From NCBI GenBank assembly GCA_950097225.1, contig CATNCE010000010.1, positions 1 to 45,468 on the forward strand: a DNA stretch of 45,468 nucleotides, in the 5' to 3' direction. The position numbers and the translations under genes are program-made. The notes below the pieces were generated by a model that was not told the origin of the DNA, did no database searches, and was given only the letters and a program-made list of their open reading frames with translations. Positions 41,678 to 45,468 of the stretch are shown here, piece by piece (the first letter of the stretch is position 1; each line of letters begins with the position of its first letter). Origin of the DNA: an uncultured Bacilli bacterium (GTDB taxonomy: Bacteria > Bacillota_I > Bacilli_A > RF39 > UBA660).

Positions 41678-41701
41678 ACTCATGAGAATAGGGTGTTGCT
41701 T

Positions 41702-43384
41702 ATGAAAAAGAAAAGTATCATATATTTCTTTGTTATCGCACTTGTAATTGGGTTTGCTAGTGTAACAGCAAACTTAATCATAAATAATACTTTAAATATC
41801 GGTTTTAATAATGCCTTCCTAGATAATGTTATATTTATAAATACTAAAACTGATGGTAAGGCATCCATTAGTTTAGATGGAAAAACAATCAGTTATGAAG
41901 CTAAAGAGTTAACTAGCATAAATGAAGAAAATATATTAACATTCTGGATAAAGAATGAAAATACTCAGTATGATGTTGAAGCCATTATATCTTGTAGTAT
42001 CGATAATATATCAGAGAATATTAAAGACTTAGTAAGTATATCAGTTGAGCCTAAAAACTTCACTTTAGTTAGCAATGAAGTAAAAAGTGGAGAAGTCAGG
42101 ATAGAAATGACTAGTGTTGTTACTGAAAGTATAGATGGAAATTTTACCTGTGAATTAATAGCAACCCCAGTAGAAAGAGAAGAAACTGGTGTAATAACAG
42201 ATACATGTGTCAATGCATTAAATGGAGCAGAGCCTGTGATAAATGGCAAGTTAATACCTGTTAAATTAGACAATAATGGTGTTGTTACATACTCTGATGA
42301 GAGTGAATCTTGGTACAACTATTGTGAGCAAAAATGGGCCAATGCAGTTATACTGATTGATAGTCCAAGTAAAACTTATAACGTAGGTGATACAATCCAG
42401 GAAAGTGATATCGAGTCATACTTTGTGTGGATACCAAGATATCGATATAGGTTATTCCATACGGACCAAGCTGATGGAACAGAAACTAAATTAAATAGTA
42501 GTATAGCGCAGACAATTGATCTTGAGTTTGAGAGTAAAGATACACTAGTATCAAATGGAAGTAACGACGGAGAATGGTTAACCCATCCCGCTTTCACAAA
42601 CTTTGATGTAAATGGGTTGTGGGTAGGTAAATTCGAAACCGGCTATAAGGGATCAACTAGTAAGACAACAGCAGAAGTAAGTTCCTCAGATCCAACAAAA
42701 ATTCAAGTAAAGCCCAATGTAAATTCATGGCGTTCAAATTCTGTTGGTAATTTCTTCAAAGCTACGTATAATTATAATCGTGAACTTGATTCGCATATGA
42801 TGAAGAATACAGAATGGGGAGCTGTTGCTTACTTAAGTCATTCCAAATATGGAATAAATGAAGAAGTGCGAATCAATAACAATTCCAACTTCTTAACAGG
42901 CTATGCGGCAAACACAAAAGATGCTAATGCAAGTGCAACCAATAATCAACCATATAATACAGCAATTGGCTATCTAGCATCAACGACAGGAAATATAACC
43001 GGTGTGTATGATATGTCAGGAGGGTCCTGGGAATATGTGGCAGGTTACCTTGATGGGGCTACAGGAGATAGTGGACTAACATTAGATGAGATAAGAAATA
43101 CCTATAGTAAATATATAGATGTATATGCAAGTGATTCCACTGATATAACATATAGTAAAAGAATCTTAGGAGATGCAACGGGAGAGATGGGCCCATTTTA
43201 TGACGAAGGGATTTATCGAAATAACTGGTATAATGATACATCCTATTTTGTAAATGAATCTTTGGCGTGGTTTGTTAGAGGGGCTGGATGTAGCAGTGCT
43301 TCTTACACAGGTCAGTTTACATTTAGTAGGTCATCCGAAGCTGGTGATAGCTATGCTAGTGCTCGTCTTGTGCTGCTTGGATAA
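41702..43384 (+). CDS. Exported surface protein with FGE/C-type-lectin-like C-terminal domain
   Basis: Encodes 560 residues. A hydrophobic N-terminal segment (~5-28) may be a signal or anchor; residues 30-165 form a beta-rich domain shared with the protein starting at 44802; Cys-containing NYCEQKWANAV follows. The C-terminal half (~240-560) has WIPRYRYRLF, HPAFTNF, NTEWGAVAYLSHSKYG, YDMSGGSWEYVAGY and WFVRGAG..., patterns of the sulfatase-modifying/C-type-lectin fold often used for ligand binding in surface and phage proteins. I start at ATG 41702, which follows AGGGTG; a GTG at 41693 is less well placed. Probable cell-surface binding protein. Confidence 0.7.
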   Translation: MKKKSIIYFFVIALVIGFASVTANLIINNTLNIGFNNAFLDNVIFINTKTDGKASISLDGKTISYEAKELTSINEENILTFWIKNENTQYDVEAIISCSIDNISENIKDLVSISVEPKNFTLVSNEVKSGEVRIEMTSVVTESIDGNFTCELIATPVEREETGVITDTCVNALNGAEPVINGKLIPVKLDNNGVVTYSDESESWYNYCEQKWANAVILIDSPSKTYNVGDTIQESDIESYFVWIPRYRYRLFHTDQADGTETKLNSSIAQTIDLEFESKDTLVSNGSNDGEWLTHPAFTNFDVNGLWVGKFETGYKGSTSKTTAEVSSSDPTKIQVKPNVNSWRSNSVGNFFKATYNYNRELDSHMMKNTEWGAVAYLSHSKYGINEEVRINNNSNFLTGYAANTKDANASATNNQPYNTAIGYLASTTGNITGVYDMSGGSWEYVAGYLDGATGDSGLTLDEIRNTYSKYIDVYASDSTDITYSKRILGDATGEMGPFYDEGIYRNNWYNDTSYFVNESLAWFVRGAGCSSASYTGQFTFSRSSEAGDSYASARLVLLG

Positions 43385-43409: not shown

Positions 43410-44633
43410 ATGAAAAGAAGAAGTGTATTATTACTGGGTATGTTGTTTCTTATGGTCGGATTTGCAGCAGTAACATCTACGTTAGTAATAAATGGTAATG
43501 CTAGAATAGCTAGTAATGATGACGATTTTGATGTGTATTTTTCGGCATCATTCGAAAATGGAAAAAAGAAAAATAGTCTAATCAAGGATGATACCCATAT
43601 CGTGTTTGATTATGATATTAGTATGGTTGGTGAAACCTATACATTAGAATATGATGTAACAAATGGAAGTCGTGAGTATGATGCAAGTGTAAGTATAAAT
43701 TGTACTAATAGTACAGAGTACTTGGGTATAACTAATGAGTTCGATGAAGAAACTAATCTCTTAGCAACTGAAACTAGAAAAGGAACATTAAAAATTGAGT
43801 TAATCAAGGCTTATGCAGGAGAAACAACTGATGTAGAGGTAACATGTGAAATAGTTGGAAGTGCTGTTTCAAGAGAAGAAGTGTCTGATGGAACACCAGC
43901 TGATAAAGTAAAAAGTGCATGGGAGATAACTGAGGATAATGATAATAATGGAGAGGTATCTGTAGGAGACTTAATCACCTTAGGTAGTGAATCGTTCTAT
44001 GTCTATAATATCGAAGGAGATAATATATCAGCAATAGCTAGATACAATTTGCACGTTGGAGGGATCTTAGCAGATGAATCAGGTGATGTTACCCCAATAG
44101 AAAATCCAACTGGATTACAAGATCCAAGTTCTAAGGGAGCAATGTATGAAGATAATGGAGCAACCACAAGTGGTTTTCCATGGTCAGGAGTAGTGCCATA
44201 CACAACTGAAGAAAAGTATAATCAAGCCAATGAAGGATTATCAGAAGAAAACAAATTAAAACCAAATAATTATGGTATAAGTGTAGTTAAAGAATATGTT
44301 GATGAATATGCAACAAAATTAGCTGAGTTAGATGGAGAAGTAAAAACAACACGATTAATAACAAAAGAAGAGTTAGAAAGTGTTGGATGTGATCCAAATA
44401 AATATTCATGTAAAGCCGGATATAATTATAATAACATGACAGAAGATGCCGAAGTTGCAGGAGCGCCAGAATACATGTATACAACATCGTACTGGACTTC
44501 TTCGCCTTATGAAGGGTTTGATGATGTAGTGTGGTATGTCCGCTCTATTGGCGGCTTTGGCTACGACCGCGTTAACTTCGACGGCGCGCTTGGTGTGCGC
44601 CCTGTTATCGAAATCTCTAAGTCTTTGTTTTAA
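43410..44633 (+). CDS. Exported surface protein with high-GC variable-type end
   Basis: Encodes 407 residues. A signal anchor (~5-27) is followed by a beta-rich domain similar in plan to its neighbours, an unknown middle, and a C-terminal domain containing YWTSSPY, WYVRS and GVRPVIEI. That last pattern is typical of a family of surface domains whose end can be a diversity-generating retroelement target. The final ~100 bases switch to about 60% G+C with runs of NNC codons. It lies 25 bases after the previous gene and has AGAAGG before the ATG, so it is co-transcribed. Confidence 0.7.
   Translation: MKRRSVLLLGMLFLMVGFAAVTSTLVINGNARIASNDDDFDVYFSASFENGKKKNSLIKDDTHIVFDYDISMVGETYTLEYDVTNGSREYDASVSINCTNSTEYLGITNEFDEETNLLATETRKGTLKIELIKAYAGETTDVEVTCEIVGSAVSREEVSDGTPADKVKSAWEITEDNDNNGEVSVGDLITLGSESFYVYNIEGDNISAIARYNLHVGGILADESGDVTPIENPTGLQDPSSKGAMYEDNGATTSGFPWSGVVPYTTEEKYNQANEGLSEENKLKPNNYGISVVKEYVDEYATKLAELDGEVKTTRLITKEELESVGCDPNKYSCKAGYNYNNMTEDAEVAGAPEYMYTTSYWTSSPYEGFDDVVWYVRSIGGFGYDRVNFDGALGVRPVIEISKSLF
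44529..44620 (+). other. Putative variable region (DGR-like) at the 3' end of 43410-44633
   Basis: By count, 44 of 72 bases in the core are G or C (61%), against about one third around it. Many codons end in C (CGC, GGC, GGC, TAC, GAC, CGC, AAC, TTC, GAC, GGC), as expected if they arose from AAC codons by adenine mutagenesis. A GC hairpin, GGCGCGC (44583-44589) with GTGCGCC (44595-44601), sits near the end. No template repeat or reverse transcriptase is in the window. Confidence 0.5.
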
Positions 44634-44801: not shown

Positions 44802-45468
44802 ATGAATAAGAAAAATGTAAGTATATTGATAATCGTGTTAGTTTTAACAATAGGATTTGCAGGAATAGCAACTAACTTGGTGATAAATGCTAGTTTAAAA
44901 GTTGGATATAATAGTACATTCTTAGATGATGTTGTGTTTATAAAAACAAAAACTGAGGGAAATGCCAGTATAAGTGAAGATGGAAAAACAATTACATATG
45001 ATGCCAAAAAGATAAGTAGTATAGGAGAAGAGACTAGTTTAGTCTTCTTTGTTAAGAATAGAAATACTCAATATGATGCCGATGTAACAATTAATTGTGG
45101 ATTAAATGATGCATCAAGTACTTTAAATAGTCTTGTTAATATATCAGTAAATCCAAGTAGTTTTACATTAGTAAGTAATGAGTTTAAAACAGGAGAAGTA
45201 AAGATCACATTAAATGGAGTAGTAACAGAGGAAACAACAGGGGTATTCACTTGTGAGTTAGTGGCAACTCCAAGTGAGAGAGAGACGCCAGGTGTAATAA
45301 CAGAAGATAATATATGTGTAGAGGATCTAAATGGAGCAGAGCCTGTAATAAATGGTGAGTTAATTCCAGTAGAATTAGCAGATAATGGTGATGTAACATA
45401 TTCAGATCAAGGATATGATTGGTATAATTATTGTGATAAGAAATGGGCTAATGCAGTAATATTAGTTG
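44802..45468 (+). CDS. Exported surface protein, paralogue of 41702-43384 (partial)
   Basis: The frame is open from ATG 44802 to the window end (222 codons seen). The N-terminal hydrophobic segment and the following domain align closely with residues 1-220 of the protein at 41702: LDDVVFIKTKTEGNASIS, FTLVSNEFKTGEVKI, LNGAEPVINGELIPVEL and WYNYCDKKWANAVIL all have a near-identical counterpart. GAAAGAG precedes the ATG. The C-terminal part is beyond the window; it would be expected to carry a similar lectin-like domain. Confidence 0.75.
   Translation, partial: MNKKNVSILIIVLVLTIGFAGIATNLVINASLKVGYNSTFLDDVVFIKTKTEGNASISEDGKTITYDAKKISSIGEETSLVFFVKNRNTQYDADVTINCGLNDASSTLNSLVNISVNPSSFTLVSNEFKTGEVKITLNGVVTEETTGVFTCELVATPSERETPGVITEDNICVEDLNGAEPVINGELIPVELADNGDVTYSDQGYDWYNYCDKKWANAVILV

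Follow-up and report, generated by a model that had tools for sequence, protein, structure and literature searches.

A GC-rich gene tail in an uncultured Bacilli bacterium is very probably the variable region of a diversity-generating retroelement acting from elsewhere in the chromosome

The usual picture of a diversity-generating retroelement (DGR) is of a single reverse transcriptase (RT) with a single template and one target or a handful; targets that lie far away escape surveys based on metagenome contigs (Roux et al., in the part of PMC8144416 drawn on here). In the DGR of the Bordetella phage BPP-1 (mtd, avd, TR, brt), an RT with SQ and YMDD motifs is accompanied by an Avd-like gene and a template (TR) with mutable adenines, and the variable region (VR) lies at the 3′ end of the target. 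Other systems reach further, at least in the sections of the reports considered here. In Treponema denticola (TvpA family) one RT and one TR serve several dispersed FGE-type targets, with at most seven target genes per isolate, and remnant targets occur (PMC4891356). Cyanobacterial DGRs act on remote variable proteins, paralogues dispersed in the genome and linked by VR/TR homology; 121 VR genes were found in 21 genomes, with kinase and peptidase fusions and mostly cytosolic products (PMC7517822). Thiohalocapsa PB-PSB1 carries several DGRs in one genome, nine loci for 15 targets with NTPase-type sensors, which are diversified in trans (PMC10907252). Where does a short GC-rich gene tail in a Bacilli bacterium fit among these systems?

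The gene lies in a draft genome (G000) of 1.61 Mb in 58 contigs, 92% complete. One entire contig of this draft, C10, is the window, that is, the whole stretch of 45,468 nucleotides that was analysed. The features at its right-hand end are as follows; DGR1 and DGR2, with templates TR1 and TR2, are the two retroelements of this genome, and C35 is the contig with a sister copy of the VR.
41693..43384, plus strand: neighbouring paralogue with an FGE-sulfatase-like C-terminus (E=0.0008, below the cut-off), of the TR1-diversified family
43243..43384, plus strand: old VR of the 41693 gene, approximate, placed by protein-level resemblance only with the register taken from the TGG at 43268
43410..44633, plus strand: DGR2 target gene, 407 aa, from the ORF call
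44538..44603, plus strand: VR2 core, homologous to TR2, from the alignment to TR2 and the C35 sister
44541..44588, plus strand: stretch holding 18 of the 19 differences between the window and C35 over 225 aligned bases
44583..44601, plus strand: 7-bp G+C hairpin with one G-T pair (by eye), judged incidental
44592..44603, plus strand: GC-rich VR 3′ end, GGTGTGCGCC, invariant in all five VR2 copies, candidate initiation-of-homing site (IMH)
44802..45468, plus strand: third tandem paralogue, truncated by the contig end (ORF open at its 3′ end)

The product of the 43410 gene has a hydrophobic N-terminal segment, an N-terminal domain common to a large paralogue family and a C-terminal domain that bears the VR. 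A protein search of its own genome returns 67 matches including itself, mainly through the N-terminal domain, and the C-terminal part resembles DUF6273 (E=0.0029) and Lcl_C (E=0.025), both below the Pfam thresholds. The sequence-only reading had placed a DGR variable region at 44500-44633, where G+C was said to rise abruptly from a third to about 60%. The rise is real but limited to about 70 bases: G+C is 34.2% over 43410-44500, 49.3% over 44500-44633 and 61.4% over 44537-44606. The NNC-rich codons are present in the GC-rich tail as described, and the motifs WTSSPY, WYVRS and GVRPVI all fall within the 407-aa frame. The identification as a VR is borne out by an RT, a template and adenine-specific differences, but the mutable core spans only about 66 bases. 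It ends 30 bases before the end of the stop codon (44633), at the 3′ end of a coding gene. Another part of the same gene, 44060-44200 (residues ~218-262), is strongly variable among paralogues and carries indels, without template-like DNA.

Which enzymes could rewrite such a tail? A PF00078 search of the genome finds exactly two RTs, neither of them in the window:
C16, locus L002 1288-2289, minus strand: RT2, with IGNMVSQ and YMDD, behind a 113-aa Avd-like ORF
C49 (a short contig), locus L001 903-1904: RT1, with IGNFTSQ and YMDD, preceded by a 63-aa Avd-like ORF cut short by an in-frame TAA
C49, locus L001 ~187-328: TR1, with 27 further matches in the genome at E<=2.9e-12, on 18 contigs

An (I/V/L)GxxxSQ motif in RT region 4 is given as the hallmark of DGR enzymes in the part of PMC3521204 consulted. 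The SQ and MDD columns are invariant in an alignment of 11 RTs (RT1, RT2 and nine relatives). The top PDB match of both, ahead of group II intron RTs, is 8ub7 (E=9e-21 for RT1, 4.7e-45 for RT2), which we take to be the RT of the BPP-1 DGR. Both small ORFs match bAvd and NF033474 (DivGenRetAVD) weakly, the latter at E=1.8e-11 and 8.8e-6, all below curated cut-offs. RT2 and its Avd-like gene are uninterrupted frames. The assembled DGR1 cassette looks damaged: its Avd-like gene has an in-frame TAA at L001:742-744 and the C-terminus of RT1 departs from its relatives, so its present activity seems uncertain. A partial second copy at C33:1-180 (L228) has the last part of the Avd-like gene and the first part of RT1, then unrelated sequence, and is apparently a decayed DGR1 duplicate.

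The sequence-only reading had asked for a near-identical repeat differing at A positions beside a DGR RT, and had held that the lack of both RT and template would speak against it. Both are found on C16. TR2 is the AAC-rich stretch VNSIGNFDNNNVNNDNDLGVRP at the 3′ end of the gene adjoining the Avd2-like gene. Over the 66-base core, the window differs from it at 15 of 21 adenines and at 2 of 45 other positions (p=2.2e-8), and the C35 copy does likewise (15/21 and 2/45). Searching the genome's DNA with the window VR yields six related places (the VR itself counts as one) and four short matches of 14-23 bases; no better second copy of TR2 was seen in the assembled genome. DGR2 has five VRs, namely the window copy, C35, C1, C5 and a heavily decayed copy on C7. 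The most telling comparison is between two paralogous copies of one genome, the window and C35. Upstream of the core they are identical over all 123 readable bases (the C35 contig begins there), and within it 17 of the 21 template adenines are changed between them, as against 1 of the 45 remaining positions (Fisher p=4.0e-11). Over the whole alignment, 17 of the differences fall at TR2 adenines, with an outlier downstream at ~44627. Chance is excluded as the source of this pattern.

As had been suggested for this tail, the abrupt change in composition could also arise with no adenine-specific mutagenesis at all, if a GC-rich cassette of foreign origin had entered the 3′ end by gene conversion or transfer. 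The flanks common to the window and C35 do show that paralogues exchange sequence or were recently duplicated. An unrelated donor would ignore the adenines of a template, whereas these same-flank copies differ almost only there, and an RT and template exist in the genome. Since the differences are confined to adenines, a foreign cassette is rejected as the main explanation and must be considered highly improbable. The genome thus holds an RT, an Avd-like gene, a template with adenine-specific differences and a sister copy whose flanks match but whose VR carries other mutations, and the GC-rich end of the 43410 gene can be read, with a probability of about 0.96, as the VR of a DGR that acts on it from elsewhere in the chromosome.

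How would the tail be written? As in other DGRs, an RNA containing the AAC-rich TR2 would be copied by the adjacent RT2 together with its Avd-like partner, and the template adenines would be read almost randomly during copying. The cDNA would then replace the matching 3′ end of the gene beside the GC-rich GGTGTGCGCC segment. In this way AAC codons would turn into NNC codons, none of which is a stop, and G+C would rise. By analogy, this scheme includes an RNA intermediate and retrohoming, and the protein would be displayed at the surface and bind a ligand. A candidate homing site is 44592..44603: GGTGTGCGCCCT is common to all five VR2 copies and its counterpart in TR2 is GGTGTGCGCCCA, while directly after GGTGTGCGCC TR2 reads CCCA and the VR2s read CCCT. 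The hairpin near the end of the VR, noticed earlier as a possible homing element, does exist, but its 5′ arm lies in hypervariable codons. It is missing from three of the four other VR2 copies (C35, C1, C7) and reduced in C5 to a 5-bp GGCGC/GCGCC match (by eye); it is therefore not conserved. As a homing signal it is ruled out, and it is best seen as a by-product of the variable codons.

A few positions depart from the expected pattern. The ATC of TR2 is ATT in the window and C35, its GA is GG in all five VR2s, and the final variable codon also changes at a position that is C in the template. These mismatches suggest that the template that wrote the VR2s was slightly different, or that TR2 has been altered since. 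The frame of TR2 itself is unusual: it is open over 404 codons, and its full-length product is a paralogue sharing 88% identity with the window protein, whereas the TR-like segment in 10 RT2-type relatives is free-standing, within a frame of only 38 to 110 codons (L220, with no clear TR, and L216, with a different repeat type, were omitted from this comparison). By eye, the sequence 3′ of TR2 on C16 looks like the flank of the TR in the relative L218 (AGCTTTCTTTAAAACT and AGATTCTTTAAAAACT, respectively). Recombination between a VR and a TR with a deletion would yield such a fusion; assembly collapse would too. A template fused to a target gene is not described in the portions of the DGR literature compared here, a search not wide enough to call it unreported. 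Is the window VR then the work of a DGR that no longer functions, its tail now ordinary inherited sequence? The non-adenine mismatches to TR2 (2/45 in the window), the fusion of TR2 to a gene and the apparent lesions of the DGR1 cassette would fit this. The intact RT2 and Avd2-like gene do not, nor do the differences between the window and C35, which sit almost solely at adenines and so place the last rewriting recently on the scale of point mutation. A fossil VR is accordingly unlikely, if far from negligible.

The second retroelement has the larger repertoire. A scan with TR1 gave 34 non-self TR1-like places, of which the best 29 were analysed over a 121-base core and the 5 most diverged dropped. 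Eighteen dispersed VRs form a recent class, defined by no more than 8 mismatches at the 85 non-adenine positions. Here 325 of 648 adenines (50.2%) are changed, to G in 176 cases, to T in 102 and to C in 47, against 42 of 1530 other positions (C 15/576, G 13/468, T 14/486). Tested one by one (Fisher), the adenine bias reaches p<1e-3 in 22 of the 29 VRs and p<1e-6 in 18; five (L135, L105, L102, L140, L113) have no non-adenine mismatch to the TR1 core at all. The ends of these VRs coincide with gene ends. Just downstream of the core, TR1 has CTCA and the VRs CTCG in 28 of 28 cases (one of the 29 has an insertion there and was left out), as expected from an IMH*/IMH pair, a role that these sites may play. 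Could a binding loop under positive selection, or undergoing ordinary antigenic variation, give the same picture if its codon use is biased? The target protein looks exported and belongs to a multigene family, which would fit. But since selection sees amino acids, it should not single out the positions that are A in a separate template, and in the recent VRs C, G and T are changed at only 2.6-2.9%; the window-C35 pattern speaks likewise. Selection on its own is hardly credible as the source.

The other 11 VRs have more non-adenine changes. Of those counted in the older class, 133 of 181 are synonymous against the 29.6% expected under uniform change, and 91 of the 181 are C to T. From this mainly synonymous drift, the older VRs seem no longer to be rewritten, yet kept as proteins while their DNA drifts toward that of the AT-rich genome. 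Judged from the mutational pattern rather than from a dated history, purifying selection still seems to maintain them as frozen variants. The DGR1 set comprises at least 18 clearly recent VRs and a tail of older ones. The neighbour of the window target provides an example: by eye, the C-terminus of the 41693 gene can be aligned to translated TR1 and is altered at the Asn codons of the template, yet its VR was missed by the TR1 DNA scan that recovered the others, and it appears to be an old, ameliorated copy. A genome search with the C-terminal part of its protein gives 54 matches, though some are pieces of the same gene. Many contigs start or stop inside target-family genes; the repeats therefore seem to break the assembly, and the family counts are lower bounds. 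Together, the two RTs account for at least 23 VRs scattered through the 1.6-Mb genome.

How might these proteins be exported? A SipW-type signal peptidase (TIGR02228) has six matches over the cut-off in G000, on C1, C6 and C16, and one at C16:12582-13052, near target genes, may bear on export of the target family. A SipW/TasA reading of the target N-terminus was dropped, as family searches gave no match. For the variable domain, which in a DGR target would be expected to have a C-type lectin fold, a profile search gives a match to 5vf4 (E=9.9e-5), which is presumably a DGR variable protein. An AF2 model of the window protein from the single sequence is of low confidence (mean pLDDT 42.9). The 41693 paralogue, modelled together with 14 homologues, reaches a moderate 68.1 but is weak over the VR, and Foldseek with it returned low-TM matches only; the structure of the domain is not argued from either model.

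Similar systems occur in relatives. Among 60 genomes searched, the bacterium's own included, RT2-like matches (E<=1e-10) are found in 18 and RT1-like matches in 19, with cross-hits possible between the two, and FGE-type paralogues in 19 (46 in the same-genus G002, 27 in G012, 18 in G036). Several relatives have a TR and a VR side by side with the expected A pattern. The copies in G002 are mostly older: only 2 of 16 places have 10% or fewer non-A differences (of the 17 places besides the TR, one whose locus contains the TR, so that the scan returned the TR itself, was excluded), which weakens any claim that a large live repertoire is general. The named relatives of RT1, at 66-70% identity, are uncultured gut Bacilli MAGs, many with isolate names containing ‘Lapin’, which we read as rabbit origin. 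A phage origin of the RTs was rejected: none of the 80 viral matches listed for RT1 exceeds 45% identity, against 66-70% reached by chromosomal relatives. RT2 has one viral relative, at 27% identity. Searches of viral contigs with the target C-terminal domain gave no match, and neither did a contig search with the full target alignment.

The relatives also show other arrangements. In RT1-type loci of several of them (L333 3249-4796, L330, L316, L319, L344, L326) the target has a type IV prepilin-like N-terminus (GFTLIELLAVIVILAIIA) and a variable FGE-like C-terminus, possibly DGR-diversified pilins. One relative, L310, has several tandem TR-like AAC-rich copies at one DGR locus (~3318, 3781 and 4339). 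In L312, L311, L313 and L212 a small ORF of the type LFKSGKFYIF.EDCD lies upstream of the RT near the TR, replacing or beside Avd; it is reminiscent of the MutS N-terminal domain.

What might these parts amount to? Tentatively, a protein-coding target gene has acquired a DGR template as its 3′ end, and a single transcript may then serve both as the message for an unmutated ‘germline’ protein and as the template that rewrites paralogues in trans; with the second DGR, it would maintain more than 20 live variable genes and a larger frozen archive under purifying selection, in a cycle of birth, diversification and freezing. The graded series from fresh to ameliorated VRs makes it testable whether DGRs write variants that are later kept as stable genes, which single-target systems cannot answer. 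Families of this kind fragment MAG assemblies and are likely undercounted.

Against the systems described so far, the tail of the 43410 gene is a DGR VR rewritten in trans, a known kind of system. The system shares with BPP-1 the RT motifs, the Avd-like gene, the mutable-A template and the 3′ position of the VR; it differs in being chromosomal and bacterial, with many remote targets, template and target on separate contigs and TR2 fused to a target. Treponema denticola has the same economy of one RT and TR for dispersed FGE-type targets, but here there are 18 recent TR1 VRs and five TR2 VRs. The dispersed paralogues recall those of cyanobacteria, the family here being exported-looking and confined to one 1.6-Mb genome, and Thiohalocapsa PB-PSB1 shares the multiple DGRs acting in trans, with two RTs here for at least 23 VRs. 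In the part of PMC6642488 consulted, the VR copies of some TRs number from a dozen to hundreds, and a single ORF holds 21, so no record is claimed. The repertoire is unusually large for so small a genome, and its size and age structure, together with the gene-embedded template, are the features that merit attention.
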